NCBI GenBank assembly: GCA_934045075.1
Contig: OW203725.1
Span: 1,516,775 to 1,580,774 of the forward strand
Source: Yponomeuta sedellus
Lineage: Eukaryota > Arthropoda > Insecta > Lepidoptera > Yponomeutidae
Direction of reading: 5' to 3'
DNA: 64,000 bases
A program made the translations under genes and the position numbers. The first letter of the stretch is position 1, and each line of letters opens with the position of its first letter. Shown piece by piece: positions 25,686 through 63,795 of this stretch. Under the pieces are notes generated by a model, which had not been told where the DNA came from, did no database searches, and saw nothing but the letters and a program-made list of their open reading frames with translations.

Positions 25686-25687
25686 AT

Positions 25688-28385: not shown

Positions 28386-28497
28386 CTGTCAGCTTCACAG
28401 TTCACAGATAGATAGATACTGATTGTTAGAATATTTTCTATTTTGCCTCGAAGTTTTGACGACGTTGCAGTCACCGTGGTCACGAGAAGACTGAAAA

Positions 28498-36357: not shown

Positions 36358-36960
36358 ATTATACTATTTTTATTTTTAATGCACTAACCGGTGCTAAGCA
36401 CACTTTTAAAAACATATTTAGAGGCTAAAAACTCCACCCATGCCGGGACTCGAACCCGCGACCTCTGGCTATCCGTGCCAGCTCTCTTACCAACTGAGCT
36501 AATGGGCGACTCACCGGTATCAGTGAAATTTCGAACCTCTTAACACTACTCTCTGTATTACGTACAGGCAGCGACATCTGGCTTAAGTAAATTGCATCAC
36601 TTACAGCCCGACTACCTACTTTGCAGTTAGGTTTTTACATCGGAATGATATCACTGTATTCACATGATTATACTATTTTTATTTTTAATTCACTAACCCG
36701 TGCTAAGGACAATTTTAAAAACCTATTTAGAGGCTAAAATCTCCACCTATGCCGGGACTCGAGCCCGCGACCTCTGGCTATCCGTGCCAGCGCTCTTTCC
36801 AACTGAGCTAATGGGCGACTCACCGGCGTCAGTGAATTTTCGAACCTCTTTACACTACTCTCTGTATTACGTACAGGCAGCGACATCTGGCTTAAGTTAA
36901 TTGCATCAATAACAGCTCCGACTACCTACTTGGCAGTTACGTTTTTCAAGGATCAAGTTT
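36358..36960 (-). repeat. Two tandem tRNA-SINE family A copies
   Basis: Two minus-oriented copies head to tail, each about 305 bp (36358-36662 and 36663-36960). Each has a complete tRNA-like module (36437-36508 and 36750-36820). The copies are about 90% alike by eye. Confidence 0.85.
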
Positions 36961-37649
36961 GATTTCAAAACTCTCCTTCAGACAAAGTTAAACACTAGAT
37001 ATGCTTCGTCTGGATAGTAACATTTGTTGACTGTTTAAAGCCGGTTTACGTCTCGAATGTTTCGTTAATCTAGATCAGTCTAGTGATTCGTAAAGTGAGT
37101 TCCTATTAAATAGATAGCAGCGCCCCCTGCAGTACAATTCCACTAAACTGCGATCCCCAACCCGCATGCCCAGCGTGGGGAAAATGGGCATTACCCCCCA
37201 ATGATGGCACAACCTTGCGCTATGGCGCTCATTAGGGGAGGGCTATGTCCAGCAGTGGACTAATATAGCCTGAAGAAGAAGAAGGTAGCGACTGATGTTC
37301 TGAGGAAAGATGGTCAGAGTAGTGCTTTATCCCGCTTTCTTTTTCTCCACTACACTACGGCCCATGGATGTTTTCTATGGCCCGAAGGCAGTGGTTCACA
37401 TTGTACATTGACATTCAGCAGACAGAAGATAAATTATTTACGTTGAAATAAATAAATAGAAAAATGTTTTTATTTCCGTGGATTTCATGACAATGATGTC
37501 GCTGAATCATTGTATTTTTTTGTCTCTGTTAAATAATTTCTCAGCTACAAATATAATTTTGGATCAATGTTATGGGATAGTCGCGAAGCTTCAGCGGCTT
37601 AAAGCTTCAATATATTAATACTTTAGGTACCAAGTTTGGTTTTTTTGGG
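36961..37649. other. Repeat debris
   Basis: Positions 37150-37285 are a 'ccactgctggacatagcc'-family copy (plus strand shows aggggagggctatgtccagc). 37290-37450 is a repeat also found at 39655-39755 and 40725-40870 (ctacggcccgaagg, ttgacattcagca, acgttgaaataaa). No gene. Confidence 0.5.
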
Positions 37650-37745
37650 CACGTTTTCTCCAAAATGATCTTGAAATGGACACCTAGTTTAACTTGTAAC
37701 GGTCATTAATTCGCAGTTTCTGTGTTAATTTGAATAAAATTTTTT
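37650..37745 (+). repeat. 3' tail of the Jockey-like element
   Basis: 'ttctccaaaatgatcttgaa', 'atggacacctagtttaactt' and 'cattaattcgcagtttctgt' match 52645-52745. 3' end only. Confidence 0.8.
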
Positions 37746-38446
37746 GATTAGATTTGATGTTTTGATATGGTTTTATTCATTACTAGCTGACTCAGCAAAC
37801 TTCTTACCGCCTACCATAGATAATTAATTTTTTTCTCTCCGTAAGAACCATCCTCGTACTTCAAGGAATATACAAAAAAAAAGAATTAGCGAAATCGGTT
37901 CAGCTGCTCTCGAGATCTGCGCTTACCAACACATTCAGCGATTCATTTTTATATTATAGATAAGAAAAACATGTTTACGTAATGAACATGTTTGTAGAAC
38001 GTAGAAATGTTGTGTTTCATAGCCTTAAAATTTCAGTAACCTCTGGTCTAGAGCACATAAATTTAATTCTTTTCTTCTGTAGCCTATACGTGTCCCACTG
38101 CAGAGCACATGCCTTCTCTCAGAGAAATGGTATGGGCTTAATTTCCACGCGTGACCATCCCGGTATGGGATTCAACACAGGTATGTATATAGCCATAGAG
38201 TATAATAAGTCTGGATATAGCTCAGACACTTAGGTTTTCTCACGATGTTTTCCTTTACAATTAGCGAGTGGTATTGCGACTACAACTTCACAAATGTACG
38301 TAACGTAAAACAAAGGCATTGGTACGACCCGGATTCGAATCCACGACCGGGAGGTAAAGTGATGTGAGGCCTCACATTATAAACTTACCCAATGTGAGGT
38401 TATACCGCTGCGCTATCACCGTAGCCGACCAATGAAATAAATAATT
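37746..38446. repeat. Dispersed lepidopteran repeats
   Basis: Positions 37782-37962 (tagctgactcagcaaacttc ... tttttatattatagat) are a common repeat. 38075-38160 and 38225-38430 belong to the ACGATGTTTTCCTTCAC family, the latter with a degenerate tRNA-like module (cattggtacgacccggattc). Confidence 0.55.
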
Positions 38447-41517: not shown

Positions 41518-42050
41518 TTATACTATTTTTATTTTTAATGCACTAACCCGTGCTAAGGAACAAATTTAAAAACCTACGTAATACAGAGAATAGTGTAAAG
41601 AGGTTCGAAATTTCACTGATGCCGTGAGTCGCCCATTGGCTCAATTGGTAGAGCGCTGGCACGGATAGCCAGAGGTTGCGTGTTCGAATCCCGGCATGGG
41701 TGAAATTTTTAGCCTCTAAATAGGTTTTTAAATTTGTTCCTTAGCACGGGTTAGTGCATTAAAAATAAAAATAGTATAATCATGTGGGTACAGTGATATC
41801 TTTCCGATGTTAAACCTAACTGCAAAGTAGGTAGTCGGGGCTGTAAGTAATGCAATTTGCTTAAGTCAGATGTCGCTGCCTGTACGTAATACAGAGAATA
41901 GTGTAAAGAGGTTTGAAATTTCACTGATGCCGTGAGTCGCCCATTGGCTCAATTGGTAGAGCGCTGGCACGGATAGCCAGAGGTTGCGGGTTCGAATCCC
42001 GGCATGGGTGAAATTTTTAGCCTCTAAATAGGTTTTTAAATATATTATTA
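41518..42050 (+). repeat. tRNA-SINE family A dimer, intact
   Basis: Two tRNA-like modules (41628-41702 and 41937-42010) in tandem with the same linker. The first 50 bases (ttatactatttttattttta, then aatgcactaacccgtgctaa) reappear inverted at 41722-41780 after the first module. This is the empty-site equivalent of the SINE split by piggyBac at 8275/9396 (cttaagtcagatgtcgctgc at 41861). Confidence 0.87.
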
Positions 42051-42750: not shown

Positions 42751-42759
42751 CGTTGCCGC
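42751..42759. repeat. Target site duplication, left copy (9 bp)
   Basis: CGTTGCCGC, identical to 63787-63795, immediately outside both ends of the foldback element. Confidence 0.85.
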
Positions 42760-43425
42760 ATGTCAGTGAACTTAGCAGATCATTGTCCAGCAGATCAAGA
42801 AAAAATGAGAGTTCTTGTCGCATGCAGCAGAGTTCTATAGTTCCTGATAGGTCTCAGAAATAGTTCTGGCGTTTTGTCCTTAAAAAAACTTAATTGAAAA
42901 AATGATCTGCTAACTTCCCGTAGCAGATCATTTCGCAGCAAATCAAAAACAAATGAGAGTTCTCGCAGCATGCAGTTGAGTTCTACAGTTCCTGATACTT
43001 TTTAGAAATAGTTCTAGTGATTTTACCCAAAAAAAATCAGTTGACAAAATGATCTGCTAACTTCCAGTAGCAGAGCACTTCGCAGAAAATCATAAATAAA
43101 TGCGCGTTTTCGGCATATTAACGTATGCCTTATAGTTCCTTATACATTTCAGGAATAGTTCTGTATTAGAATTCAAATAACAGCAGCTCATGTACTTAAG
43201 CTTAAAAGTCGAAACATACAATTTTCATCGACACAAATAATTTTATCAAACTCTGGACACAGAACCCTTAAGTTTTTAACAAACCTGTACAGAACTAAAT
43301 TTTAAAACTTTAATAGAACAAGAACTGACGAAAATGTGCAAGAGCAACATACCAATACGTTTCGGAACTCGAAAAATAGAATATTATTTATTTTCAATTA
43401 TATATGGGCACTCAGAGAACAGAAC
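42760..43425 (+). repeat. Outer domain of the left foldback arm
   Basis: Non-array terminal region, inverted counterpart of about 63130-63786. Contains the site AGCAGATCA or its complement repeatedly (42774, 42789, 42903, 42922, 43050). Two sites form a 12-bp hairpin, aatgatctgcta at 42901 with its complement at 42921. The next pair near 43049-43077 is a degenerate version. These look like terminal transposase-binding sites. Confidence 0.8.
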
Positions 43426-46400
43426 TCTTTTGTTTTAGATAGATCTGCATCAGAACTACTGTAAAGAATCCAATTGAAAACTAGAACTCACGTAAAAGTG
43501 CCAGCAGATCATACCTGTTTGCGTAAAATTTTGAAATATAAAAAATATTTTTTTTTAAATTATATTTGCATGCTGGGACCACAGAACTCCTTTGTTTTAG
43601 ATAGATCTGCATCAGAACTACTGTATAGAATCCAATTGCAAACTAGAACTCAAGTAAAAGTGCCAGCAGATCATACCTGTTTGCGTAAAATTTAGAAATA
43701 TAAAACATAATTTTTTTTAAATTATAATTGCATGCTGGGACCACAGAACTCCTTTGTTTTTCACAGATTCGTATCAGAACTACCATAAAAAGCGCAATTC
43801 TAAGCTGGAACTCAGAAAAAAAAGCCAGCAGATCACACTAGTATGTTTGAAAACTCAAAAAGTAAAACTTTATTTATTTTGAATAATTTATAGGCACTCA
43901 GACCACAGAACTCTTTTTTTTTAGATAGATCTGCATCAGAACTACTGTATAGAATCCAATTGAAAACTAGAACTCACGTAAAAGTGCCAGCAGATCATAC
44001 CTGTTTGCGTAAAAATTTGAAATATAAAAAATATTTTTTTCAAAATTATATTTGCATGCTGGGACCACAGAACTCCTTTGTTTTAGATAGATCTGCATCA
44101 GAACTACTGTAAAGAATCCAATTGCAAACTAAAACTCAAGTAAAAGTGCCAGCAGAGCATACCTGTTTGCGTAAAATTTAGAAATATAAAACATAATTTT
44201 TTTTAAATTATAATTGCATGCTGGGACCACAGAACTCCTTTGTTTTTCACAGATTCGTATCAGAACTACCATAAAAAGCGCAAATCTAAGCTGGAACTCA
44301 GAAAAAAAAGCCAGCAGATCACACTAGTATGTTTGAAAACTCAAAAAGTAAAACTTTATTTATTTTGAATCATTTATAGGAATTCAGACCACAGAACTCT
44401 TTTGCTTTAGATAGATCTGCATCGGAACTACTGTATAGAATCCAATTGAAAACTAGAACTCACGTAAAAGTGCCAGCAGATCATACCTGTTTGCGTAAAA
44501 TTTTGAAATATAAAAAATATTTTTTTTAAATTATATTTGCATGCTGGGACCACAGAACTCCTTTGTTTTTCACAGATTCGTATCAGAACTACCATAAAAA
44601 GTGCAATTCTAAGCTGGAACTCAGAAAAAAAAGCCAGCAGATCACACTAGTATGTTTGAAAACTCAAAAAGTAAAACTTTATTTATTTTGAATCATTTAT
44701 AGGCACTTAGACCACAGAACTCCTTTGTTTTAGATGAATCTGCATCAGAACTACTGTATAGAATCCAATTGCAAACTAGAACTCAAGTAAAAGTGCCAGC
44801 AGATCATACCTGTTCGCGTAAAATTTAGAAATATAAAACATAATTTTTTTTTAATTATAATTGCATGCTGGGACCACAGAACTCCTTTGTTTGTCACAGA
44901 TTCGTATCAGAACTACCATAAAAAGCGCAAATCTAAGCTGGAACTCAGAAAAAAAAGCCAGCAGATCACACTAGTATGTTTGAAAACTCAAAAAGTATAA
45001 CTTTATTTATTTTGAATCATTTATAGGAATTCAGACCACAGAACTCTTTTGCTTTAGATAGATCTGCATCAGAACTACTGTATAGAATCCAATCGAAAAC
45101 TAGAACTCACGTAAAAGTGCCAGCAGATCATACCTGTTTGCGTAAAATTTTGAAATATAAAAAATATTTTTTTTAAATTATATTTGCATACTGGGACCAC
45201 AGAACTCCTTTGTTTTAGATAGATCTGCATCAGAACTACTGTAAAGAATCCAATTGCAAACTAGAACTCAAGTAAAAGTGCCAGCAGATCATACCTGTTT
45301 GCGTAAAATTTAAAAATATAAAACATAATTTTTTTAAAATTATAATTGGATTCTGGGAGCACAGAACTCCTTTGTTTTTCATAGATTCGTATCAGAACTA
45401 CCACAAAAAGCGCAATTCTAAGCTGGAACTCAGAAAAAAAAGCCAGCAGATCACACTAGTATGTTTGAAAACTCAAAAAGTAAAGCTTTATTTATTTTGA
45501 AACATTAATAGGCACTCAGACCACAGAACTCTTTTGTTTAAGATAGATCTGCATCAGAACTACTGTATAGAATCCAATTGCAAACTAGAACTCAAGTAAA
45601 AGTGCCAGCAGATCATACCTGTTTGCGTAAAATTTAGAAATATAAAACATAATTTTTTTTAAATTATAATTGCATGCTGGGACCACAGAACTCCTTTGTT
45701 TTTCACAGATTCGTATCAGAACTACCATAAAAAGCGCAATTCTAAGCTGGAACTCAGAAAAAAAAGCCAGCAGATCACACTAGTATGTTTGAAAACACAA
45801 AAAGTAAAACTTTATTTATTTTGAATCATTTATAGGTACTCAGACCACAGAACTACTTTGTTTTAAATAGATCTGCATCAGAACTACTGTAAAGAATCCA
45901 ATTGAAAACTAGAACTCACGTAAAAGTGCCAGCAGATCATACTTGTTTGCGTAAAATTTTGAAATATAAAAAATATTTTTTTTTTTAATTATATTTGCAT
46001 GCTGGGACCACAGAACTCCTTTGTTTTAGATAGATCTGCATTAGAACTACTGTATAGAATCCAATTGCAAACTAGAACTCAAGTAAAAGTGCCAGCAGAT
46101 CATACCTGTTTGCGTAAAATTTAGAAATATAAAACATAATTTTTTTTTAATTATAATTGCATGCTGGGACCACAGAACTCCTTTGTTTTTCACAGACTCG
46201 TATCAGAACTACCATAAAAAGCGCAATTCTAAGCTGGAACTCAGAAAAAAAAGCCAGCAGATAAACTAGTATGTTTGAAAACTCAAAAAGTAAAACTTTA
46301 TTTATTTTGAATCATTTATAGGAACTCAGACCACAGAACTCTTTTGTTTTAGATAGATCTGCATCAGAACTACTGTATAGAATCCAATTGAAAACTAGAA

Positions 46401-49400
46401 TTCACGTAAAAGTGCCAGCAGATCATACCTGTTTGCGTAAAATTTAGAAATATAAAAAATATTTTTTTTTAAATTATATTTGCATGCTGGGACCACAGAA
46501 CTCCTTTGTTTTAGATAGATCTGCATCAAAACTACTGTATAGAATCCAATTGCAAACTAGAACTCAAGTAAAAGTGCCAGCAGATCATACCTGTTTGCGT
46601 AAAATTTAGAAATATAAAACATAATTTTTTTTTAATTATAATTGCATGCTGGGACCACAGAACTCCTTTGTTTTTCACAGATTCGTATCAGAACTACCAT
46701 AAAAAGCGCAATCCTAAGCTGGAACTCAGAAAAAAAAGCCAGCAGATCACACTAGTATGTTTGAAAACTCAAAAAGTAAAACTTTATTTATTTTGAATCA
46801 TTTATAGGTACTCAGACCACAGAACTCCTTTGTTTTAGATAGATCTGCATCAGAACTACTGTATAGAATCCAATTGCAAACTAGAACTCAAGTAAAAGTG
46901 CCAGCAGATCATACCTGTTTGCGTAAAATTTAGAAATATAAAACATAATTTTTTTTTAATTATAATTGCATGCTGGGACCACAGAACTCCTTTGTTTTTC
47001 ACAAATTCGTATCAGAACTACCAAAAAAAGCGCAATTCTAAGCTGGAACTCAGAAAAATACACCAGCAGATCACACTAGTATGTTTGAAAACTCAAAAAG
47101 TAAAACTTTATTTATTTTGAATCATTTATAGGCACTCAGACCACAGAACTCTTTTGTTTTAGATAGATCTGCATCAGAACTACTGTAAAGAATCCAATTG
47201 CAAACTAGAACTCAAGTAAAAGTGCCAGCAGATCATACCTGTTTGCGTAAAATTTAGAAATGTAAAAAATATTTTTTTTTAAATTATATTTGCATGCTGG
47301 GACCACAAAACTCCTTTGTTTTAGATAGATCTGCATCAGAACTGTAAAGAATCCATTTGCAAACTAGAACTCAAGTAAAAGTGCCAGCAGATCATACCTG
47401 TTTGCGTAAAATTTAGAAATATAAAACATAATTTTTTTTTAATTATAATTGCATGCTGGGACCACAGAACTCCTTTGTTTTTTACAGATTCGTATCAGAA
47501 CTACCATAAAAAGCGCAATTCTAAGCTGGAACTCAGAAAAAAAAGCCAGCAGATCACACTAGTATGTTTGAAAACTCAAAAAGTAAAACTTTATTTATTT
47601 TGAATCATTTATAGGTACTCAGACCACAGAACTCCTTTGTTTTAGATAGATCTGCATCAGAACTACTGTATAGAATCCAATTGCAAACTAGAACTCAAGT
47701 AAAAGTGCCAGCAGATCATACCTGTTTGCGTAAAATTTAGAAATATAAAACATAATTTTTTTTTAATTATAATTGCATGCTGGGACCACAGAACTCCTTT
47801 GTTTTTCACAGATTCGTATCAGAACTACCATAAAAAGCGCAACTCTAAGCTGGAACTCAGAAAAAAAAGCCAGCAGATCACACTAGTATGTTTGAAAACT
47901 CAAAAAGTAAAACTTTATTTATTTTGAATCATTTACAGGTACTCAGACCACAGAACTCCTTTGTTTTAGATAGATCTGCATCAGAACTACTGTATAGAAT
48001 CCAATTGCAAACTAGAACTCAAGTAAAAGTGCCAGCAGATCATACCTGTTTGCGTAAAATTTAGAAATATAAAACATAATTTTTTTTTAATTATAATTGC
48101 ATGCTGGGACCACAGAACTCCTTTGTTTTTCACAGATTCGTATCAGAACTACCATAAAAAGTGCAATTCTAAGCTGGAACTCAGAAAAAAAAGCCAGCAG
48201 ATCACACTAGTATGTTCGAAAACTCAAAAAGTAAAACTTTATTTATTTTCAATCATTTATAGGCACTCAGACCACAGAACTCTTCTGTTTTAGATAGATC
48301 TGCATCAGAACTACTGTAAAGAATCCAATTGCAAACTAAAACTCACGTAAAAGTGCCAGCAGACCATACCTGTTTGCGTAAAATTTAGAAATATAAAAAA
48401 TATTTTTTTTTAAATTATATTTGCATGCTGGGACCACAGAACTCCTTTGTTTTAGATAGATCTGGATCAGAACTACTGTATAGAATCCAATTGCAAACTA
48501 GAACTCAAGTGAAAGTGCCAGCAGATCATACCTGTTTGCGTAAAATTTAGAAATATAAAACATATTTTTTTTAAAATTATAATTGCATGCTGGGACCACA
48601 GAACTCCTTTGTTTTTCACAGATTTGTATCAGAACTACCATAAAAAGCGCAATTCTAAGCTGGAACTCAGAAAAAAAAGCCAGCAGATCACACTAGTATG
48701 TTTGAAAACTCAAAAAGTAAAGCTTTATTTATTTTGAAACATTAATAGGCACTCAGACCACAGAACTCTTTTGTTTAAGATAGATCTGCATCAGAACTAC
48801 TGTAAAGAATCCAATTGCAAACTAGAACTCAAGTAAAAGTGCCAGCAGATCATACCTGTTTGCGTAAAATTTAGAAATATAAAACATAATTTTTTTTTAA
48901 TTATAATTGCATGCTGGGACCACAGAACTCCTTTGTTTTTCACAGACTCGTATCAGAACTACCATAAAAAGCGCAATTCTAAGCTGGAACTCAGAAAAAA
49001 AAGCCAGCAGATCACACTAGTATGTTTGAAAACTCAAAAAGTAAAACTTTATTTATTTGGAATCATTTATAGGCGCTTAGACCACAGAACTCTTTTTTTT
49101 TAGATAGATCTGCATCAAAACTACTGTATAGAATCCAATTGAAAACTAGAACTCACGTAAAAGTGCCAGCAGATCATACCTGTTTGCGTAAAATTTAGAA
49201 ATATAAAAAAAAAAAATTTTAATTATATTAGCATGCTGGGACCACAGAACTCCTTTGTTTTAGATAGATTTGCATCAGAATTACTGTATAGAATCCAATT
49301 GCAAACTAGAACTGAAGTAAAAGTGCCAGCAGATCATACCTGTTTGCGTAAAATTTAGAAATATAAAACATAATTTTTTTTTAATTATAATTGCATGCTG

Positions 49401-50476
49401 GGACCACAGAACTCCTTTGTTTTTCACAGATTCGTATCAGAACTACCATAAAAAGCGCAATTCTAAGCTGGAACTCAGAAAAAAAAGCCAGCAGATCACA
49501 CTAGTATGTTTGAAAACTCAAAAAGTAAAACTTTATTTATTTTGAATCATTTATAGGTACTCAGACCACAGAACTCCTTTGTTTTAGATAGATCTGCATC
49601 AGAACTACTGTATAGAATCCAATTGCAAACTAGAACTCAAGTAAAAGTGCCAGCAGATCATACCTGTTTGCGTAAAATTTTGAAATATAAAACATAATTT
49701 TTTTTAAATTATAATTGGATTCTGGGAGCACAGAACTCCTTTGTTTTTCACATATTCGTATCAGAACTACCATAAAAAGCGCAATTCTAAGCTGGAACTC
49801 AGAAAAAAAAGCCAGCAGATCACACTAGTATGTTTGAAAACTCAAAAAGTAAAACTTTATTTATTTTGAATCATTTATAGGTACTCAGACCACAGAACTC
49901 CTTTGTTTTAGATAGATTTGCATCAGAATTACTGTATAGAATCCAATTGCAAACTAGAACTGAAGTAAAAGTGCCAGCAGATCATACCTGTTTGCGTAAA
50001 ATTTAGAAATATAAAACATAATTTTTTTTTAATTATAATTGCATGCTGGGACCACAGAACTCCTTTGTTTTTCACAGATTCGTATCAGAACTACCATAAA
50101 AAGCGCAATTCTAAGCTGGAACTCAGAAAAAAAAGCCAGCAGATCACACCAGTATGTTTGAAAACTCAAAAAGTAAAACTTTATTTATTTTGAATCATTT
50201 ATAGGTACTCAGACCACAGAACTCCTTTGTTTTAGATAGATCTGCTTCAGAACTACTGTATAGAATCCAATTGCAAACTAGAACTCAAGTAAAAGTGCCA
50301 GCAGATCATACCTGTTTGCGTAAAATTTAGAAATATAAAACATAATTTTTTCTTTAATTATAATTGCATGCTGGGACCACAGAACTCCTTTGTTTTTCAC
50401 AGATTCGTATCAGAACTACCATAAAAAGCGCAATTCTAAGCTGGAACTCAGAAAAAAAAGCCAGCAGATCACACTA
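43426..50476 (+). repeat. Left-arm satellite array (about 160-bp monomers)
   Basis: About 44 monomers marked by 'ccacagaactcctttgtttt' and 'gccagcagatca'. Three monomer types: A (catacctgtttgcgtaaaat with ...aaatatttttt), B (same with ...aacataatttttt), C (cacactagtatgtttgaaaa, then actttatttattttgaatca). They follow in A-B-C or B-C order, so the higher-order unit is about 480 or 320 bp. Short ORFs inside are artefacts of the repeat. AT-rich, no gene. Confidence 0.9.
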
Positions 50477-50735
50477 GGGTAAAAATACCGGTAATCGGCC
50501 ATTTAAGCCACTTGTTGACTTCAGCGTTGATTTTTATTTTAATGCAGTACACCAACACTTTTCAAAAATTCAATATATCATCATACAATAGTCTAGTTTT
50601 ATAAAAACTAACGCTTATAGAGGTATCTTCTACACATAATTTACAAAAAATAATTAATAGTGAAAGTAGCAAAAATACCGGTTATCGGCCATTTGACTCA
50701 GTTATCGGCCACTAATGCACTGGTTATCGGCCACC
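50477..50735. promoter_or_regulatory. Left subterminal CGGCCA array of the pogo-like element
   Basis: Motif (g)ttatcggccaYt occurs at about 50494 (gtaatcggccattt), 50682 (gttatcggccattt), 50701 (gttatcggccacta) and 50723 (gttatcggccacct), all in one orientation. Counterparts on the right lie at 55670-55905. Likely transposase-binding sites, by analogy with other DNA transposons. Confidence 0.6.
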
Positions 50736-50910
50736 TATTGTAAAGTAGAAAAATGGCTCTTATCCAAAAGCTGAAAAGGTTGATAGTAGTATGAAAGTAA
50801 AACCAATAAAATAAATCACTTCTGAGGTTTATTTGTTACAAAATCAGTTTGAGCTTAGGTAGTTTAGCTCATAAATTAAGAAAATTTTGATATGAAAATA
50901 TTGGATACAC

Positions 50911-50917
50911 AATCAAA
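50911..50917. repeat. Target duplication of the nested retrotransposon, left
   Basis: AATCAAA (CAATCAAA if one base is added) is repeated at 52767-52773 directly after the (TTTCA)n tail. Confidence 0.65.
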
Positions 50918-52766
50918 CGACAGCTCCTTTAGACTCTTCTCCAGCTCTTGCTGAAAGTATTTTGAAAGACAATGTCCCCCCATGCCATCACGATTTTTCG
51001 TTCGACTATATTGAAGCCCATACCGTGATTAAATCGTTTAAAAAGCTAAAGCTTAAAAAAACTGAGGACTTATGGGGTATGTCAGTAATAGTAGTTAGCT
51101 CAGTAATCGATACCCTAGCACCCCATTTAGCCAAAATCTTTAACAAATGTTTAGATGAGGGTATATTCCCTGATCTAATGAAATATAGTAGGCTCGTTCC
51201 TTTATTTAAAAGCGGTGATAAGCAAGATCCCACAAATTTCAGACCAGTCTCAGTTCTACCCGTTTTGAGTAAAATATTCGAGAAGATAGTTCTAGGTCAG
51301 CTGCTTACACATTTCAATGACTATCAACTTCTCCATGGTCAGCAATTCGGCTTTACGCAAGGGCGCTCTACAACGGACGCCGGCGTCATGTTAGTTAAAC
51401 ATATATTTAGTGCATGGGAAGAGCGCAAGGATGCTATAGGCGTATTCTGTGACTTGTCGAAAGCATTTGATTGCGTTGACCATAAAACACTTCTTTTAAA
51501 ATTAAAGCACTATGGTATAAACGGGAATAGCCTAAAACTTATAACATCATATTTAGAAGGGAGAGTTCAAAGAGCTGATATAAATAGAACTAAATCTTCA
51601 GGGTCAGAGGTCAGGATTGGAGTGCCACAGGGATCGATTTTGGGGCCGTTCCTCTTCCTCGTATATGTAAATGATTTGCCGTTCATGGTTCAAAATATGT
51701 CAGAGATAGTATTATTTGCAGATGACACGTCTCTTATTTTTAAAATTAAGAGACAAGAAAATGACCTTGACAATACAAATAATGCTCTCTCTCGGGTACT
51801 AAATTGGTTTACTTCTAATAACTTATTGTTAAATTCAAAAAAGACGAAATGTATAAAGTTCACTCTTCCAAATGTCAAAACGGTAGACAGCAATGTTTTA
51901 CTGGGGAATGACAAATTAGACCTTGTGAATGAAACTGTATTCCTAGGTATCACAATTGATGCAAAGCTTCAATGGGGTCCTCATGTAGAAAAATTAGCAA
52001 ATAGGCTTAGTTCAGCAGCATATGCAGTCAAAAGAATTAGGGAACTAACTGACGTCGCAACTGCTAGGCTTGTTTATTTTAGTTACTTCCATAGTCTTAT
52101 GTCCTATGGCATACTACTGTGGGGACGGGCAGCAGACATCGAGACCATCTTCGTCTTGCAGAAGAGAGCGATCAGATTCATTTATAGGCTGGGTAGTAGA
52201 GATTCGTTAAGAGATTTCTTTAAAGAAACTAACATCCTGACAGTTGCCAGTCAGTATATATATGAAAACATTATGTACGTTAGGAAAAATATCAGTAACT
52301 TTAAAACTTTAGGTAGCCAACACAATGTAAATACTAGAAATAAACATAAACTTTTGTTCCCACTATTTAGGCTGGCAAAGGTTAATACATCCTTCATGGG
52401 GCATTGTATACGCTTCTATAATAAAATCCCTGAAGATATATTAAGCTTGCCTGAATCGCGGTTCAAAAAATATGTTAAGCACACTTTGTGCCAAAAGGGC
52501 TACTATAACATAAAGGATTATTTAGATGACAATGAGGTCTGGAATGAAAGCCAGTACAATGTATGAGTTCTATGTTCAAAATAATTATGTAAACTATGTT
52601 AATTAAGGACTTTTGAAAAGACTAAGTTAGGAGTTTTTTTGTCCATTTTTTCTCCTAAATGATCTAGATTTTGAAATGGACCCCTAGTTTGAATTGTAAC
52701 GTTCATTAAGCCGCAGTTTCTGTGCTACTTTGAATAAAACCTTTTCATTTCATTTCATTTCATTTC
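50918..52766 (+). mobile_element. 5'-truncated Jockey-like non-LTR retrotransposon
   Basis: Starts in mid-ORF after a 7-8 bp target repeat, and ends with a 200-base 3' UTR and a short (TTTCA)n tail at 52747-52766 before the second target repeat. 5' truncation with flanking duplications is the signature of target-primed reverse transcription. The 3' UTR matches separate tails at 25688-25800, 28498-28625 (inverted) and 37650-37745, so the family is spread in this genome. Confidence 0.88.
50920..52566 (+). pseudogene. Reverse transcriptase (Jockey-like ORF2), N-terminal endonuclease missing
   Basis: 549 codons open from the truncation point to TGA at 52564, without internal stops. The RT core is complete: LVPLFKSGDKQDPTNFRPVS (region 1), GFTQGRSTTDA, FCDLSKAFDCVDH (first catalytic Asp), GVPQGSILGPFLFLVYVNDL and LFADDTSL (the Y/FADD box), then the thumb with LNSKKTKCIKF and FLGITID. 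The C-terminal part (ALQKRAIRFI-like LQKRAIRFIY region) is typical of Jockey/CR1 elements. In an intact element an AP endonuclease precedes this, so the copy is dead on arrival even though the RT frame is intact. Annotated as pseudogene because it is truncated. Confidence 0.93.
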
Positions 52767-52981
52767 AATCAAAAACCAAAAATCTTGGGATATCGTAATC
52801 TTAGTGAAAATAAATTTAAATTTGATATTCAGAAGATTTGAATGTCCAAAAAAAAAGATTTTCTTCACTTAAACTACAATCAACCGTTTAAAATATAAAG
52901 AAAAAAATCCTTTAGAACAAGATTTAACAATAACTTCTAAACAAATTATAATAAAAACAAAGTAGGTACCAATTCACCTAA

Positions 52982-55446
52982 TTAGTCAGAATTGTCAGGA
53001 CAAAAAGTTTTCAAAACTTCTCTGGGTGCATTTTGAGCGTTTTCGCACAATTCACATGTATATTGCTTGGTAACTGCTTTATTGTAAGTTGAATTCTTTA
53101 GTTTCGTGCATTTCAGGTGATACCATCGAATGCAGTTGTCACAGCCTATATTTTTTTCTCCGTCTTCTTCAGTGTCACTTAAAAGAGCAAGCTCACAAGA
53201 AAAACATTTAATGTGGGATTGCGTTTCTTCTATTTTCTTTTTCTTTACAATCACAGTCGTTTTGTTCATTTTCTTCTTTTTTTGTGGTGGCTCTGTTTTC
53301 TTTTGCTCCCTTTCAAGTTTTCGTTTCTTTATTTTGTTTTCTTTATCTAGTTTTTCTTTTTCTTTTTTTTCGTGATACTGTTGCCAAGCTTTAGATGATA
53401 TAGCACTCGGAAACTGGCTCCATGTGCGGCTTCCTTTGGTTTTTGTAACGATATCAGGAAATTTTAGGTGTTTTTTGAACGGATCCTCTCTACTGTCACC
53501 GTATTTGTCTATAGCAATGTAATTCACTACGTTTTTTGGAGATGGTTTTGTGTTTTCATCAGCCCCTACAGAAATCATTGTATTAACTGGCCAGTCTTTC
53601 CCAATTGTTACCATTTTTGTAGCTGTAACATCTTCTGAGTTTAATTGGATATCTTTCGCTAACGTTCCGGCGTGATTGTCATCGTCCACAGAATTAACGA
53701 CAGGAGTATCGTTATTAATTTGACATATTTCTGGTAAATTTATGTCACTTAATGCTGTTATGGATATATCGTCCAAAGATACCAAAGAACCAATGTCTGG
53801 TATCTGAAAAGAGTTATAGTCGCTGTCCTCAAAAGTATTTTTTCCCAAATCTTCCGGCCTTGGGCTTTTGGATTTTTTTTCAGAAGATTTCACTCGGGGA
53901 GTGGAAGTGGATTGCAAAGCTCGGGGTGTTTTCAATGTATCGTCCGAAGACTTGTTAACTTCAAACGATTTTGACTGTCGCGGAGTTGCAGTGGATTGCG
54001 AAGTTCGGGGTGTCTTCGATTTAGATCGTCGTTTTTGTAAGTATGACTCCTTTGTGCGGTCAAGTTCACGTATGATGATGCTTGGATTTATACCCAGCTT
54101 TGTTATATTCTCTTCCATCAGGTGAAACACTTGTCTGGCTATTTCAAAATGTCTGTCGTTGAGAGGTTTTTGTGAGATAGTTTGAGCAGCAGTTGCATTC
54201 CGTATCTGAGCGTCTTTTACGCATTTTGAAAAATCCACCCGTTCTACGTCAAACGGATAAAGGCCGCATTTACGGAATCCATTCTTGATTGTTTGAGTCA
54301 TCTCTTTGTCTAGTGTCTCTTTAAAAACTTGACAGAAGTTTGTTTTTGTTACACATTTGTTAAGATTTTCAGCTCGACTCTGCCAATTTTTCACAGTGCG
54401 CTTCCATTCTTGTTTAAGGGGTTTAAACACACTCACATCAGCTGGCTGCAAAATATGAGTTGTATTCGGTGGCAATGCATACAAAATAATATCATTATCG
54501 TCGCAGAATTTACTCAGTGGCATAGACATATGTGACTTATGCCCATCTACAAAAAACAGAACAGGCTTTTTTGTGTGTTGGTTTGTCAGCCAATCGATGA
54601 ACCCATTAGACATGTACTCAAAAAATACATCTGCTCGCATCCACCCGCTCTCGGATTTTCCTAAAATCCAGTCAGGCGGCATGTTGTCGACTACCGCTTT
54701 AGGTGGTCTTAGATAGGGAAACACCACCAATGGTGGACATATTTCCCCAGACGCTGTTATTACCACCAGTACTGTGATGTTCTCTTTCTCATTGCCTTTC
54801 TTCACTACGTACACATTTTTGTAGCCTTTAGGTGCTAGAACCTTCCCTGATTTAGGAGACAGTGATATCCCAGTTTCATCAGCGTTTAGAATACGGTCAG
54901 GATCATCTAAAATATCTAACGCATTTTTTTCAGCCAAGAAAAGGTGTAAGTCTGCAAACCATTTCCGAATGGAACTTTCCTTAATAGCTTCTCGCGCCTT
55001 GTTAATAGCCTCTGGTTCTCGGATGCTTATGTTGGGATGACGCTTGAGAAAGCTGAGGTACCATCGTATACCAGGCTTACCTCTAGGAAAGCGATGGTCT
55101 ATGCCAAGATCTTTTCCAAGCTCAGCTACAGTATCCAGAAGATCATATTTGTTAATAGGAATTCCAGATTTTGCTGACTGAATTATCCAATCAACAATTT
55201 TTCTTTCTCCTTCATAACCAAATATAGACCAACTTTTCTCATTTTTTCAGCAACACGACCGTGAAGCCTGTCCTGTACAGTAGCTCTTGGAACCCCGTAG
55301 TATCGACACGCTTCTCTAATACCTCGAATGTTACCACGTATATCTGAAAGAGCGTTAATCAGTGCTTGTTCAGCGTAACCAAACCTTTTTTGTTTTTCTT
55401 TTTCATCTTTTTTCTTTTTCTTAATTTTATTAGTGACAGGTGTCAT
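52982..55446 (-). pseudogene. Pogo/Tigger-like transposase with psq HTH and C-terminal PHD finger, one frameshift
   Basis: ATG at 55446 (just after an acceptor-like ttttttttcag) opens 73 codons: a Lys-rich start and a pipsqueak-type HTH (ALINALSDIRGNIRGIREAC, YYGVPRATVQDRL). At 55226-55230 the frame shifts: KVG overlaps the following SIFGYEGE by one base, whereas relatives have a few residues between. The second frame runs 748 codons without a stop: CENPB-type HTH (IVDWIIQSAKSGIPI, GIRWYLSFLKRHP), then the DDE core with NADETGI, VLFFVDGHKSH and LPPNTTHILQPAD (last two Asp 35 residues apart). A disordered Ser/Lys-rich region and a nuclear-type Lys/Glu block follow. The PHD finger has CFSC, CDNC, WYHLKC and CELC. 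A PHD finger would bind histone tails. The shift predicts loss of the intact protein unless it is a sequencing error. Confidence 0.9.
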
Positions 55447-56508
55447 CTGAAAAAAAAACAAGCGCAATTCCAATACCAAGCACCTGAATCAAAATTTGTA
55501 GCAAATCAAGGGTTAATTAAGCGCATTCAATTAATTTTCCCTTGCAAAAAAAGTACCCTATGTCACTTTCTAAACTTCCAAGTATATGTACCTATTCTAA
55601 CATCATCATGATCCGTTGTAACATTTTGTCGTGAAAGAAGGCAATGAATATAGAATTTACTTAGTTATGTCAGTTATCGGCCATACATCAACCCCTACGG
55701 CCGGTAACAGGTTGTATTTTTACGATTTATCGGCCTTATTTAATTTGCGACGGCTGGAAACAGGTAAAATGTTTACTAGTTATCAGCCGTTATATTCTTC
55801 TCACGGCCGGAAAAAGGTTACAATTTTACCAGTTATCGGCCGTTTTTTATATCCCACGGCCGGAAATAGGTAGAATTTTGACTAGTAATCGGCCGTTAAA
55901 TATACGGTACTTTTGAGGGTCATATCTTTGGAAATATAAGGCAATTTAGCGGCCGGAATCTGGTAGTAAATGCAGAAAAATCTAGTTGCTTATAAATTTA
56001 AAGGGATTTGTGCTTTGAGAAATGAAGGTTTCTACTTATAGACAAAGAAAAAAGTCATAAACAATACCGGTTTACGGCCTTCCGGCCGCAAACTAGTTTT
56101 TGAAATAGATTGTTAACGTGTTCCCCGGCCGCCAAAAATATCACAAACTATGAATGTTTGATAAGTTTTGGATCTCGAATATTAAAATTAACCATGTTAT
56201 TTATCCGCAAACCAAAGCAATCACCAAAAAAAACACAGTAACACTTTAAAACTAACCTCTGAAAAGCAAACCTCCCACTATTTTTTTTGCTCAATTTGTC
56301 ACACGTCCGCACAGTAACTTTCTAGATAACGACTGAGAGCACATTTTTTAATGTTCAAGGTTAAGCCGCCAGAGAATGAATTGTGAAGTTCGTCCGAATC
56401 GAACGGCGTGTAAATAGAAAAGGATAGTTTACTATTACTTCTATTATTCAACACAATGTATGAAATGGCCGAAAAGGGGTAGTGGCCGGCAAACCGGTAG
56501 TTTTACCC
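55447..56508. promoter_or_regulatory. Right subterminal region with alternating CGGCC motifs
   Basis: From 55670 to 55905, pairs alternate: gttatcggccata, acggccggtaacagg, tttatcggcc, acggctggaaacaggt, gttatcagccg, acggccggaaaaaggtt, gttatcggccgt, acggccggaaataggt, gtaatcggccgt. More lie at 55952, 56075-56090 and 56125. The outermost 45 bases hold gtggccggcaaaccggtagt. The region also should carry the transposase promoter. No ORF of its own. Confidence 0.6.
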
Positions 56509-56767
56509 TAGTATGTTTGAAAACTCAAAAAGTAAAACTTTATTTATTTTGAATCATTTATAGGTACTCAGACCACAGAACTCCTTTGTTTTAGATAGAT
56601 CTGCATCAGAACTACTGTATAGAATCCAATTGAAAACTAGAACTCACGTAAAAAAGCCAGCAGATCATACCTGTTTGCGTAAAATTTTGAAATATAAAAC
56701 ATAATTTTTTTAAAATTATAATTGGATGCTCGGACCACAGAACTCCTTTGTTTTTCACAGATTCGTA
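56509..56767 (+). repeat. Left-arm satellite, innermost part
   Basis: Resumes exactly where the array stopped at 50476 (tagtatgtttgaaaactca), with two further monomers up to the inversion point. Confidence 0.9.
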
Positions 56768-56811
56768 GTTTTGATACGAATCTGTGAAAAACAAAGGAGT
56801 TCTGTGGTCCC
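56730..56811. repeat. Inversion point of the foldback (hairpin)
   Basis: ggaccacagaactcctttgt ... cagattcgta (ending 56767) faces its perfect complement starting 56775, separated by the 7-base spacer gttttga. This is the symmetry centre of the 21-kb element. Confidence 0.92.
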
Positions 56812-59800
56812 AGCATGCAATTATAATTAAAAAAAAAATTATGTTTTATATTTCTAAATTTTACGCAAACAGGTATGATCTGCTGGCACTTTTACTTGAG
56901 TTCTAGTTTGCAATTGGATTCTATACAGTAGTTCTGATGCAGATCTATCTAAAACAAATGAGTTCTGTGGTCTGAGTACCTATAAATGATTCAAAATAAA
57001 TAAAGTTTTACTTTTTGAGTTTTCAAACATACTAGTGTGATCTGCTGGCTTTTTTTTCTGAGTTCCAGCTTAGATTTGCGCTTTTTATGGTAGTTCTGAT
57101 ACGAATCTGTGAAAAACAAAGGAGTTCTGTGGTCCCAGCATGCAATTATAATTTAAAAAAAAAATTATGTTTTATATTTCTAAATTTTACGCAAACAGGT
57201 ATGATCTGCTGGCACTTTTACTTGAGTTCTAGTTTGCAATTGGATTCTATTCAGTAGTTCTGATGCAGATCTATCTAAAACAAAGGAGTTCTGTGGTCTG
57301 AGTACCTATAAATGATTCAAAATAAATAAAGTTTTACTTTTTGAGTTTTCAAACATACTAGTGTGATCTGCTGGCTTTTTTTTCTGAGTTCCAGCTTAGA
57401 ATTGCACTTTTTATGGTAGTTCTGATACGAATCTGTGAAAAACAAAGGAGTTCTGTGGTCCCAGCATCCAATTATAATTTAAAAAAAAATATGTCTTATA
57501 TTTCTAAATTTTACGCAAACAGGTATGATCTGCTGGCACTTTAACGTGAGTTCTAGTTTTCAATTGGATTCTTTACAGTAGTTCTGATGCAGATCTATCT
57601 AAAACAAAAGAGTTCTGTGGTCTAAGTGCCTATAAATGATTCAAAATAAATAAAGTTTTACTTTTTGAGTTTTCAAACATACTAGTGTGATCTGCTGGCT
57701 TTTTTTTCTGAGTTCCAGCTTAGAATTGCGCTTTTTATGGTAGTTCTGATACGAATCTGTGAAAAACAAAGGAGTTCTGTGCTCCCAGAATCCAATTATA
57801 ATTTATAAAAAATTATGTTTTATATTTCAAAATTTTACGCAAACAGGTATGATCTGCTGGCACTCTTACTTGAGTTCTAATTTGCAATTGGATTCTATAC
57901 AGTAGTTCTGATGCAGATCTATCTAAAACTAAGGAGTTCTGTGGTCCCAGCATGCAAATATAATTTAAAAAAAATATTTTTTATATTTCAAAATTTTACG
58001 CAAACAGGTGGCACTTTTACGTGAGTTCTAGTTTTCAATTGGATTTTATACAGTAGTTCTGATGCAGATCTATCTAAAACAAGAGTTCTGTGGTCTGAGT
58101 GCCTATAAATGATTCCAAATAAAAAAAGTTTTACTTTTTGAGTTTTCAAACATACTAGTGTGATCTGCTGGCTTTTTTTTCTGAGTTCCAGCTTAGAATT
58201 GCGCTTTTTATGGTAGTTCTGATACAAATCTGTAAAAAACAAAGGAGTTCTGTGCTTCCAGAATCCAATTATAATTTTAAAAAAATTATGTTTTATATTT
58301 TTAAATTTTACGCAAACAGGTATGATCTGCTGGCACTTTTACTTTAGTTTTAGTTTGCAATTGGATTCTTTACAGTAGTTCTGATGCAGATCTATCTAAA
58401 ACAAACGAGTTCTGTGGTCCCAGCATGCAAATATAATTTTAAAAAAAATATTTTTTATATTTCAAATTTTTACGCAAACAGGTATGATCTGCTGGCACTT
58501 TTACGTGAGTTCTAGTTTTCAATTGGATTCTATACAGTAGTTCTGATGCAGATCTATCTAAAACAAAAGAGTTCTGTGGTCTAAGTGCCTATAAATGATT
58601 CATAATAAATAAAGTTTTACTTTTTGAGTTTTCAAACATACAAGTGTGATCTGCTGGCTTTTTTTTCTGAGTTCCAGCTTAGATTTGCGCTTTTTATGGT
58701 AGTTCTGATACGAATCTGTGAAAAACAAAGGAGTTCTGTGGTCCCAGCATCCAATTATAATTTAAAAAAAAATATGTCTTATATTTCTAAATTTTACGCA
58801 AACAGGTATGATCTGCTGGCACTTTTACGTGAGTTCTAGTTTTCAATTGGATTCTTTACAGTAGTTCTGATGCAGATCTATCTAAAACAAAAGAGTTCTG
58901 TGGTCTAAGTGCCTATAAATGATTCAAAATAAATAAAGTTTTACTTTTTGAGTTTTCAAACATACTAGTGTGATCTGCTGGCTTTTTTTTCTGAGTTCCA
59001 GCTTAGAATTGCGCTTTTTATGGTAGTTCTGATACGAATCTGTGAAAAACAAAGGAGTTCTGTGCTCCCAGAATCCAATTATAATTTTAAAAAAATCATG
59101 TTTTATATTTTTAAATTTTACGCAAACAGGTATGATCTGCTGGCACTTTTACTTGAGTTCTAGTTTGCAATTAGATTCTATACAGTAGTTCTGATGCAGA
59201 TCTATCTAAAACAAAGGAGTTCTGTGGTCTGAGTACCTATAAATGATTCAAAATAAATAAAGTTTTACTTTTTGAGTTTTCAAACATACTAGTGTGATCT
59301 GCTGGCTTTTTTTTCTGAGTTCCAGCTTAGAATTGCACTTTTTATGGTAGTTCTGATACGAATCTGTGAAAAACAAAGGAGTTCTGTGGTCCCAGCATGC
59401 AATTATAATTAAAAAAAAAAATTATGTTTTATATTTCTAAATTTTACGCAAACAGGTATGATCTGCTGGCACTTTTACTTGAGTTCTAGTTTGCAATTGG
59501 ATTCTATACAGTAGTTCTGATGCAGATCTATCTAAAACAAAGGAGTTCTGTGGTCTGAGTACCTATAAATGATTCAAAATAAATAAAGTTTTACTTTTTG
59601 AGTTTTCAAACATACTAGTGTGATCTGCTGGCTTTTTTTTCTGAGTTCCAGCTTAGAATTGCACTTTTTATGGTAGTTCTGATACGAATCTGTGAAAAAC
59701 AAAGGAGTTCTGTGGTCCCAGCATGCAATTATAATTTTAAAAAAAAATTATGTTTTATATTTCTAAATTTTACGCAAACAGGTATGATCTGCTGGCACTT

Positions 59801-62800
59801 TTACTTGAGTTCTAGTTTGCAATTGGATTCTTTACAGTAGTTCTGATGCAGATCTATCTAAAACAAAGGAGTTCTGTGGTCTGAGTACATATTTATGATT
59901 CAAAATAAATAAAGTTTTACTTTTTTAGTTTTCAAACATACTAGTGTGATCTGCTGGCTTTTTTTTCTGAGTTCCAGCTTCGAATTGCGCTTTTTATGGT
60001 AGTTCTGATACGAATCTGTGAAAAACAAAGGAGTTTTGTGGTCCCAGCATGCAATTATAATTTAAAAAAAATTATGTTTTATATTTCTAAATTTTACGCA
60101 AACAGGTATGCTCTGCTGGCACTTTTACTTGAGTTTTAGTTTGCAATTGGATTCTTTACAGTAGTTCTGATGCAGATCTATCTAAAACAAAGGAGTTCTG
60201 TGGTCCCAGCATGCAAATATAATTTTAAAAAAAATATTTTTTATATTTCAAATTTTTACGCAAACAGGTATGATCTGCTGGCACTTTTACGTGAGTTCTA
60301 GTTTTCAATTGGATTCTGTACAGTAGTTCTGATGCAGATCTATCTAAAAAAAAGAGTTCTGTGGTCTGAGTGCCTATAAATGATTCAAAATAAATAAAGT
60401 TTTACTTTTTGAGTTTTCAAACATACTAGTGTGATCTGCTGGCTTTTTTTTCTGAGTTCCAGCTTAGAATTGCGCTTTTTATGGTAGTTCTGATACGAAT
60501 CTGTGAATAACAAAGGAGTTCTGTGCTCCCAGAATCCAATTATAATTTAAAAAAAATTATGTTTTATATTTCAAAATTTTACGCAAACAGGTATGATCTG
60601 CTGGCACTTTTACGTGAGTTCTAGTTTTTAATTGGATTCTATACAGTAGTTCTGATGCAGATCTATCTAAAACAAAAGAGTTCTGTGGTCTGAGTGCCTA
60701 TAAATGATTCAAAATAAATAAAGTTTTACTTTTTGAGTTTTCAAACATACTAGTGTGATCTGCTGGATTTTTTTTCTGAGTTCCAGCTTAGATATGCGCT
60801 TTTTATGGTAGTTCTGATACGAATACGTAAAAAACAAAGGAGTTCTGTGGTCCCAGAATCCAATTATAATTTAAAAAAAATTATGTTTTATATTTCAAAA
60901 TTTTACGCAAACAGGTATGATCTGCTGGCACTTTTACGTGAGTTCTAGTTTTTAATTGGATTCTATACAGTAGTTCTAATGCAGATCTATCTAAAACAAA
61001 AGAGTTCTGTGGTCTGAGTGCCTATAAATGATTCACAATTATAATTTTAAAAAAATTATGTTTTATATTTTTAAATTTTACGCAAACAGGTATGATCTGC
61101 TGGCACTTTTACTTGAGTTCTAGTTTGCAATTGGATTCTTTACAGTAGTTCTCATGCAGATCTATCTAAAACAAAGGAGTTCTGTGGTCCCAGTATGCAA
61201 ATATAATTTAAAAAAAATATTTTTTATATTTCAAAATTTTACGCAAACAGGTATGATCTGCTGGCACTTTTACGTGAGTTCTAGTTTTCAATTGGATTCT
61301 ATACAGTAGTTCTGATGCAGATCTATCTAAAGCAAAAGAGTTCTGTGGTCTGAATTCCTATAAATGATTCAAAATAAATAAAGTTTTACTTTTTGAGTTT
61401 TCAAACATACTAGTGTGATCTGCTGGCTTTTTTTTCTGAGTTCCAGCTTAGATTTGCGCTTTTTGTGGTAGTTCTGATACGAATCTGTGACAAACAAAGG
61501 AGTTCTGTGGTCCCAGCATGCAATTATAATTAAAAAAAAATTATGTTTTATATTTCTAAATTTTACGCGAACAGGTATGATCTGCTGGCACTTTTACTTG
61601 AGTTCTAGTTTGCAATTGGATTCTATACAGTAGTTCTGATGCAGATTCATCTAAAACAAAGGAGTTCTGTGGTCTAAGTGCCTATAAATGATTCAAAATA
61701 AATAAAGTTTTACTTTTTGAGTTTTCAAACATACTAGTGTGATCTGCTGGCTTTTTTTTCTGAGTTCCAGCTTAGAATTGCACTTTTTATGGTAGTTCTG
61801 ATACGAATCTGTGAAAAACAAAGGAGTTCTGTGGTCCCAGCATGCAAATATAATTTAAAAAAAATATTTTTTATATTTCAAAATTTTACGCAAACAGGTA
61901 TGATCTGCTGGCACTTTTACGTGAGTTCTAGTTTTCAATTGGATTCTATACAGTAGTTCTGATGCAGATCTATCTAAAGCAAAAGAGTTCTGTGGTCTGA
62001 ATTCCTATAAATGATTCAAAATAAATAAAGTTTTACTTTTTGAGTTTTCAAACATACTAGTGTGATCTGCTGGCTTTTTTTTCTGAGTTCCAGCTTAGAT
62101 TTGCGCTTTTTATGGTAGATCTGATACGAATCTGTGAAAAACAAAGGAGTTCTGTGGTCCCAGCATGCAATTATAATTTAAAAAAAATTATGTTTTATAT
62201 TTCTAAATTTTACGCAAACAGGTATGCTCTGCTGGCACTTTTACTTGAGTTTTAGTTTGCAATTGGATTCTTTACAGTAGTTCTGATGCAGATCTATCTA
62301 AAACAAAGGAGTTCTGTGGTCCCAGCATGCAAATATAATTTAAAAAAATATATTTTTTATATTTCTAAATTTTACGCAAACAGGTATGGTCTGCTGGCAC
62401 TTTTACGTGAGTTTTAGTTTGCAATTGGATTCTATACAGTAGTTCTGATGCAGATCTATCTAAAGCAAAAGAGTTCTGTGGTCTGAATTCCTATAAATGA
62501 TTCAAAATAAATAAAGTTTTACTTTTTGAGTTTTCAAACATACTAGTGTGATCTGCTGGCTTTTTTTTCTGAGTTCCAGCTTAGAATTGCGCTTTTTATG
62601 GTAGTTCTGATACAAATCTGTGAAAAACAAAGGAGTTCTGTGGTCCCAGCATGCAATTATAATTTAAAAAAAATTATGTTTTATATTTCTAAATTTTACG
62701 CAAACAGGTATGATCTGCTGGCACTTTTACTTGAGTTCTAGTTTGCAATTGGATTCTATACAGTAGTTCTGATCCAGATCTATCTAAAACAAAGGAGTTC

Positions 62801-63130
62801 TGTGGTCCCAGCATGCAAATATAATTTAAAAAAATATATTTTTTATATTTCTAAATTTTACGCAAACAGGTATGATCTGCTGGCACTCTTACTTGAGTTC
62901 TTATTTGCAATTGGATTCTATACAGTAGTTCTGATGCAGATCTATCTTAAACAAAGGAGTTCTGTGGTCCCAGCATGCAAATATAATTTAAAAAAAAATA
63001 TTTTTTATATTTCAAAATTTTACGCAAACAGGTATGATCTGCTGGCACTTTTACGTGAGTTCTAGTTTTCAATTGGATTCTTTACAGTAGTTCTGATGCA
63101 GATCTATCTAAAACAAAAGAGTTCTGTTCT
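56775..63130 (-). repeat. Right-arm satellite array (inverted)
   Basis: About 39 monomers of the same three types on the minus strand (aaacaaaggagttctgtggt; tgatctgctggcactttta). It is about 0.96 kb, i.e. six monomers, shorter than the left arm, and monomer order differs in places (for example a shortened C-type at 61015-61045), so the arms have changed independently by unequal exchange. Confidence 0.9.
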
Positions 63131-63786
63131 CTGAGTGCCCATATATAATTGAAAATAAATAATATTCTATTTTTCGAGTTCCGAAACGTATTGGTATGTT
63201 GCTCTTGCACATTTTCGTCAGTTCTTGTTCTATTAAAGTTTTAAAATTTAGTTCTGTACAGGTTTGTTAAAAACTTAAGGGTTCTGTGTCCAGAGTTTGA
63301 TAAAATTATTTGTGTCGATGAAAATTGTATGTTTCGACTTTTAAGCTTAAGTACATGAGCTGCTGTTATTTGAATTCTAATACAGAACTATTCCTGAAAT
63401 GTATAAGGAACTATAAGGCATACGTTAATATGCCGAAAACGCGCATTTATTTATGATTTTCTGCGAAGTGCTCTGCTACTGGAAGTTAGCAGATCATTTT
63501 GTCAACTGATTTTTTTTGGGTAAAATCACTAGAACTATTTCTAAAAAGTATCAGGAACTGTAGAACTCAACTGCATGCTGCGAGAACTCTCATTTGTTTT
63601 TGATTTGCTGCGAAATGATCTGCTACGGGAAGTTAGCAGATCATTTTTTCAATTATGTTTTTTTAAGGACAAAACGCCAGAACTATTTCTGAGACCTATC
63701 AGGAACTATAGAACTCTGCTGCATGCGACAAGAACTCTCATTTTTTCTTGATCTGCTGGACAATGATCTGCTAAGTTCACTGACAT
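63131..63786 (-). repeat. Outer domain of the right foldback arm
   Basis: Inverted counterpart of 42760-43425, nearly identical (for example aggacaaaacgccagaacta at 63667 versus the complement at 42862). Carries the same hairpin pair of AGCAGATCA sites (63614-63645). Confidence 0.85.
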
Positions 63787-63795
63787 CGTTGCCGC
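63787..63795. repeat. Target site duplication, right copy (9 bp)
   Basis: CGTTGCCGC, identical to 42751-42759. Confidence 0.85.

Follow-up and report, generated by a model that had tools for sequence, protein, structure and literature searches.

A probable non-autonomous foldback transposon with arms of 7 to 8 kb in the lepidopteran Yponomeuta sedellus

Introduction

What kind of element forms the long inverted repeat at positions 42751-63795 of a 64,000-nucleotide stretch of the Yponomeuta sedellus genome (Lepidoptera, Yponomeutidae), and how did two arms of repeated DNA come to face each other there? The stretch (assembly GCA_934045075.1, contig OW203725.1, positions 1,516,775 to 1,580,774 of the forward strand) is referred to here as the window, and its own coordinates are used throughout. 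An initial annotation, made from the letters alone, took the locus for a foldback transposon. The analysis reported here indicates that it is very probably a lepidopteran DNA transposon of the cut-and-paste kind, non-autonomous and with foldback architecture, because it combines exact inverted ends, a 9-bp target duplication, non-coding arms, and giant inverted arrays that meet at a loop of 7 nucleotides (nt). Nearly perfect palindromes of such size are expected to be unstable, which makes the persistence of the element a question in itself. It also supplies a concrete model, open to testing, of how inverted repeats of this kind originate and stay alike.

Ends, target duplication and size

The outer limits of the element are set by two short direct repeats:

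42751..42759, no strand assigned: left copy of the target duplication, CGTTGCCGC, 9 bp
63787..63795, no strand assigned: right copy of the target duplication, CGTTGCCGC, 9 bp

Between them the foldback extends from 42760 to 63786, and its ends are exact inverted copies of each other. Within the window, the terminal sequence ATGTCAGTGAAC is found once, at 42760; a single copy of its complement occupies 63775-63786. CGTTGCCGC is found twice on the plus strand of the 64 kb and not at all on the other strand, and both occurrences abut the ends of the element. Since a fixed 9-mer would match by chance with a probability of about 4e-6 (arithmetic, assuming equal base use), the pair is best read as the target duplication of an insertion; past the 9-mer, no kinship between the flanking sequences is apparent by eye. 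The exact ends and the 9-bp duplication of the initial annotation are thereby borne out. Together with long inverted repeats composed of tandem repeats, they are features of the foldback class.

The size given earlier, 21 kb, holds for the full span but not for the foldback alone, since the span includes a nested insertion of 6,034 bp. Without it the element measures 14,993 bp (21,027 - 6,034), in agreement with the earlier estimate of about 15 kb before inserts. Measured from the point used as the centre, the left arm is 7,977 bp long and the right arm 7,016 bp, so that the description of the element as very large stands, with arms of 7-8 kb each. In a self-BLAST of the window (E <= 1e-8, queries starting before 42000), no further copy was recovered, the element region being matched only by fragments of a long interspersed nuclear element (LINE).

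Architecture of the arms

Each arm consists of a terminal domain of roughly 0.5-0.6 kb followed by a tandem array, and the left arm is interrupted by the nested insertion, a pogo-type transposon:

42760..43366 (inner border approximate), plus strand: left terminal domain, with the end ATGTCAGTGAAC and then diverged ~147-bp modules
43367..50476, plus strand: left arm tandem array, ~162-bp units of types a, B and A, ending at the pogo insertion (TA)
56511..56767, plus strand: inner end of the left arm, separated by the pogo insertion and terminating in the central stem
56768..56774, no strand assigned: fold-centre loop GTTTTGA, 7 nt, with a 36-bp perfect stem on its flanks
56775..63179, minus strand: right arm tandem array, ~162-bp units, inverted
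63180..63786 (inner border approximate), minus strand: right terminal domain, an inverted copy of the left one with 1 difference in 620 columns

The modules of the left terminal domain carry AGCAGATCA motifs in both orientations, and the last ~120 bp of this domain resemble a diverged 162-bp unit (70%). About 44 units follow in the left arm and 37-39 in the right. Tandem Repeats Finder reported period-162 arrays at 43419-50471 and 56788-63174 and a period of 147-148 at both termini, and an inverted-repeat search detected gap-free arm segments as long as 1,978 bp at 98%. The earlier description of inverted repeats built of tandem repeats is therefore confirmed, the arrays of ~162-bp units being colinear in inverted orientation.

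Cutting at CCAGCAGATCA-like sites (at most 3 mismatches) divided the left arm into 44 units and the right arm into 37. Of these 81, all but one, with lengths of 140-180 bp, entered the alignment of 80 units; the one of 311 bp was excluded. Among the aligned units, 33 were of type a, 14 of type A and 32 of type B, with one outlier, and the consensus sequences are 84% (a/A), 68.5% (a/B) and 81% (A/B) identical. By eye, type A is a-like in its first half and B-like in its second, the pattern expected from unequal exchange. Both arms have 324 bp as their most frequent k-mer spacing, indicating a basic repeat that is mostly aB, into which A units have been inserted. After one additional right-arm unit, the order of types is concordant between the arms in their outer part.

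The arrays show no sign of coding: over ~2,130-2,350 codons, all six frames of both arrays contain 105-161 stops each, and among the stop-to-stop frames listed for the arms the longest have 116 and 107 amino acids. A coding function of the arrays was rejected on the stops throughout the six frames and on the 107-amino-acid frame (about two units), which was unmatched at E <= 10 among 384 candidates. No known RNA family matched 42500-64000 at gathering thresholds. With the insert removed, the left arm (42760-56770) has an observed-to-expected CpG ratio of 0.46, versus 1.0 in the first 42.7 kb.

Fold centre and likeness between the arms

Read on the minus strand, the sequence of the centre is CACAGATTC-GTA-TCAAAAC-TAC-GAATCTGTG. 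An ordinary a unit continues as GTATCAGAACTAC at this point (18 left-arm and 14 right-arm cases), and the junction thus falls on a 3-bp interrupted inverted repeat of unit a, GTA-N7-TAC. The exact loop letters, searched as GTATCAAAACTAC, are present in no unit; TCAAAACTAC itself occurs twice in the left arm.

In a global alignment the arms are 97.3% identical over 6,848 ungapped columns, and most gaps span about one or two units. The first 790 bp differ at one position; the outer 2,589 columns hold 22 differences (0.85%) and the inner 4,259 hold 161 (3.8%), a cut that was chosen after the alignment had been viewed, and the Fisher test on it assumes independent sites. Divergence does not rise monotonically, with 1.98% in columns 791-1600 and 1.68% in the innermost bin, where the alignment sits two units off the fold centre. 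In the outer array, 11 in-register unit pairs averaged 98.7% identity, versus 96.0% in 157 same-type pairs taken out of register, and two of the 11 (0.957 and 0.963) lie at this background level. The position of the nearest left-arm unit for 36 right-arm units gave a Spearman rho of 0.34 (p 0.04, ties assigned to the first), so that individual units are clearly colinear in the outer part only. Over the 400 bp nearest the centre, the arms share 97.0% identity, and units of the same type are 95-96% identical between arms. These values suggest that the outer ends either have a recent common source or have been kept alike, and that the inner arrays have turned over.

Candidate transposase sites

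AGCAGATCA occurs in one orientation 45 times in the left arm and 38 times in the right, and twice in each arm in the other orientation; it is absent from both strands of the first 42.7 kb. It recurs about once per unit, which mostly accounts for its high count, and it is also present at the very ends. More telling is that the terminal module, which does not otherwise resemble the unit, contains three copies, two of them 15 and 30 bp from the end and a third, inverted, at 144. Some 9-mer of the unit dimer reached that frequency in the terminal module in 7 of 5,000 dinucleotide shuffles. Binding of a transposase domain to sites in the tandem repeats of the terminal inverted repeats (TIRs) is described for Galileo from binding assays (PMC3573991, PMC3688188), and by analogy the AGCAGATCA copies are candidate transposase sites.

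A transposase encoded elsewhere would bind the ends, and probably the AGCAGATCA sites too, and insert the element as a unit. The arms may have grown by unequal exchange between units, with type A as an a/B hybrid, and conversion could have kept the outer ends alike unless they derive from a recent common source. Afterwards, the pogo-type transposon entered near the fold centre.

Several results weigh against this reading. The terminal module and the unit share at least one 9-mer in 2,799 of 5,000 shuffles, so that such sharing is nothing special and only its multiplicity is. Motifs are only weakly conserved from one unit type to another: a sum of 35 for the three longest invariant runs is reached in 858 of 20,000 shuffles, and a longest run of 13 in 4,481 of 20,000. 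Mobility is inferred from the ends and the duplication of a single copy in the window, and no transposase with matching ends came to light, although the host genome was not searched for one. Finally, three exact patterns gave no match among viral contigs, where insect copies are not expected.

The nested pogo-type transposon

The middle of the locus contains coding DNA that does not belong to the foldback:

50475..56510, no strand assigned: nested pogo-type DNA transposon, 6,034 bp, separate from the foldback, with TA at 50475-50476 and 56509-56510
52982..55488, minus strand: pogo-type transposase in two frames, with HTH_psq at 55186-55488 and HTH_Tnp_Tc5, DDE_1 and PHD at 52985-55246
50896..52767, plus strand: 3' part of a LINE inside the pogo-type element, with RVT_1 and a TTTCA-repeat tail at 52743-52767

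The initial annotation called the element non-coding. This is correct for the foldback itself but not for its middle, whose coding DNA is the pogo-type transposon and the LINE. The insert has inverted ends, TAGGGTAAAA and TTTTACCCTA (TA included in each), a TA duplication, and a DDE_1 transposase with helix-turn-helix (HTH) domains, the characters of a pogo-type element; the PHD finger is C-terminal. Its transposase has 307 matches at E <= 0.001; the best 120 of these 307 include homologues in Lepidoptera, Coleoptera and other insects, and the nearest are 88% identical. When the two flanks are joined with one TA, 200 of 200 bases match another unit, and 31 more places match over 192-200 bp at 96.0-99.5% identity. 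The pogo-type transposon therefore inserted into an existing foldback, at a distance of about 0.26 kb from its centre. It may already have carried the LINE on arrival or have received it later. Neither a 5' border nor a target duplication of the LINE was found, the best common string being a 9-mer distant from the tail. GGCCG-containing repeats lie close to the ends of the insert, and LINE-related 3' fragments are located at 25685-25784, 28492-28768 and 37639-37749.

Comparison with known elements

Foldback architecture is already known, and what is unusual here is the size. The element also has no middle domain, and its fold junction remains legible. The FB element of Drosophila melanogaster has inverted repeats made of tandem repeats and 9-bp duplications, with shorter units and inverted repeats that reach kilobases. 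The carbonaria insertion of the peppered moth is reportedly a tandemly repeated element with a 4-bp duplication, and was set aside as a counterpart on that account.

Among insect elements with long TIRs, 8-10-bp duplications and tandem repeats within the TIRs, the excerpts of the published reports compared here describe Tetris (PMC4079207) and Muta1 (PMC5225508). Tetris of Drosophila virilis is alike in its outer TIR domain and ~220-bp tandem units, in having no conserved open reading frame, and in its 8-10-bp duplications with no transposase found, but it also possesses an inner TIR domain and a middle domain, the latter being absent from the present element. An allelic pair of a complete Tetris copy has 3 and 4 left-TIR units, and larger arrays are also reported, versus ~44 and 37-39 units per arm here (PMC4079207). 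Galileo, a P superfamily element of Drosophila, shares foldback-like, internally repetitive TIRs and includes copies that consist of TIRs only; it differs in its 7-bp duplications and in its TIRs, which range from 18 bp to ~1.26 kb in D. mojavensis, versus 7-8 kb here (PMC3573991, PMC3688188). Muta1 of Aedes aegypti, a Mutator-like element (MULE) termed a type 2 Foldback element, resembles the present element in 8-9-bp duplications and subterminal tandem repeats in the TIRs, and is unlike it in a 145-bp TIR, 12-bp repeats, a transposase of its own and a length of 3,198 bp (PMC5225508). Tm1 of Meloidogyne also has composite TIRs of tandem repeats and 8-10-bp duplications, mostly of 9 bp (45 of 53 elements), but its repeats are ~14 bp, and two lengths given for it are 1,080 and 2,593 bp (PMC3169594). 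Among foldback-like elements, Galileo causes inversions and Tetris can feed satellite DNA.

The longest TIR stated for the compared elements in these excerpts is thus about 1.26 kb (Galileo), and the present arms are several times longer. No size record is claimed, since FB repeats are of kilobase scale and larger Tetris arrays exist. In the open-licence literature, no title among the matches listed names a lepidopteran foldback element, which is not proof of absence from print, and a search of the same literature for a 162-bp lepidopteran satellite found nothing related.

Classification and origin of the element

It is very improbable that the locus is not a transposon but a satellite array, a segmental duplication in inverted orientation or an artefact of assembly. 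Tandem arrays do make up most of the length, and the TIR repeats of Tetris are reported to feed a satellite (PMC4079207), but these readings are countered by the exact ends and the 9-bp duplication, and by non-identical arms of which only one holds an insertion with its own duplication. A fold-back artefact of assembly in particular would be unlikely, because the arms differ in sequence and unit number, a nested transposon lies in one of them, and the 9-bp duplication is present. For the foldback transposon preferred here, the balance tilts towards a refinement that places it in the Mutator superfamily, with a MULE transposase mobilising it. Its 9-bp duplication falls within the 8-10 bp of that superfamily, though it is not exclusive to it, and long TIRs with tandem repeats are described for Muta1, Tm1 and Tetris, the last of which was assigned on like grounds. 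The arms, however, encode no MULE transposase, and Galileo, of like architecture, belongs to the P superfamily with its 7-bp duplications, versus 9 bp here. Duplications in the P superfamily are of 7-8 bp, and Merlin-type elements also make duplications of 8-9 bp; the length of 9 bp alone is thus insufficient to set the superfamily.

How the foldback became two-ended is a separate matter, for which two origins were considered. One, not far from an even chance, is snap-back synthesis or fork closure at the GTA-N7-TAC of unit a, by which one arm would have been copied from the other. The junction coincides with this interrupted repeat, the trace expected from either process, and is flanked by the 36-bp perfect stem, and fold-back and closed-fork models at short interrupted repeats have been published for yeast, there with repeats of 7 bp in the report consulted. 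A repeat of 3 bp is very short by comparison and easily met by chance, however, and the exact loop letters GTATCAAAACTAC are in no unit. Likeness at the centre is barely above the 95-96% background, the outer ends being the most alike, and later turnover of units or conversion has to be assumed. The other origin, for which a tentative case can be made, is that the arms were joined after an ordinary long-TIR element lost its middle domain, perhaps with a transposase gene. Gene loss with elongation of the TIRs is a published proposal for foldbacks (PMC4079207), but the loop is only 7 nt long, its letters continue the unit of one arm with one change, and there is no trace of a middle domain. It is unlikely, as a whole, that a one-ended tandem array acquired its second end, and so became a complete transposon, through one snap-back at the 3-bp interrupted repeat of its own unit, that dozens of AGCAGATCA copies per arm load transposase and thereby sustain the mobility of a 15-kb hairpin with no genes and almost no loop, and that the near-central pogo insertion stabilised the palindrome.

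Other features of the window

A partial gene resembling SENP1 (sentrin-specific protease) lies at 867-2009 on the minus strand. The lepidopteran host proposed earlier is supported by the gene at 870-2009, all five of whose species-named relatives, in 45 matches in total, are Lepidoptera (Diatraea, Eumeta, Danaus, Bicyclus and Maniola/Aphantopus). The frames at 8765-9184 and 34460-34858, which resemble remnants of piggyBac and mariner transposases, respectively, had no Pfam match at E <= 0.001. A dispersed repeat of ~160-370 bp, possibly a short interspersed nuclear element or a miniature element, is present in many copies in both orientations, mostly 85-99% identical:

7676-8275, 9396-9578, 14787-15070, 18236-18599, 36357-36946 and 41575-42046, both orientations: copies of the dispersed repeat, from self-BLAST
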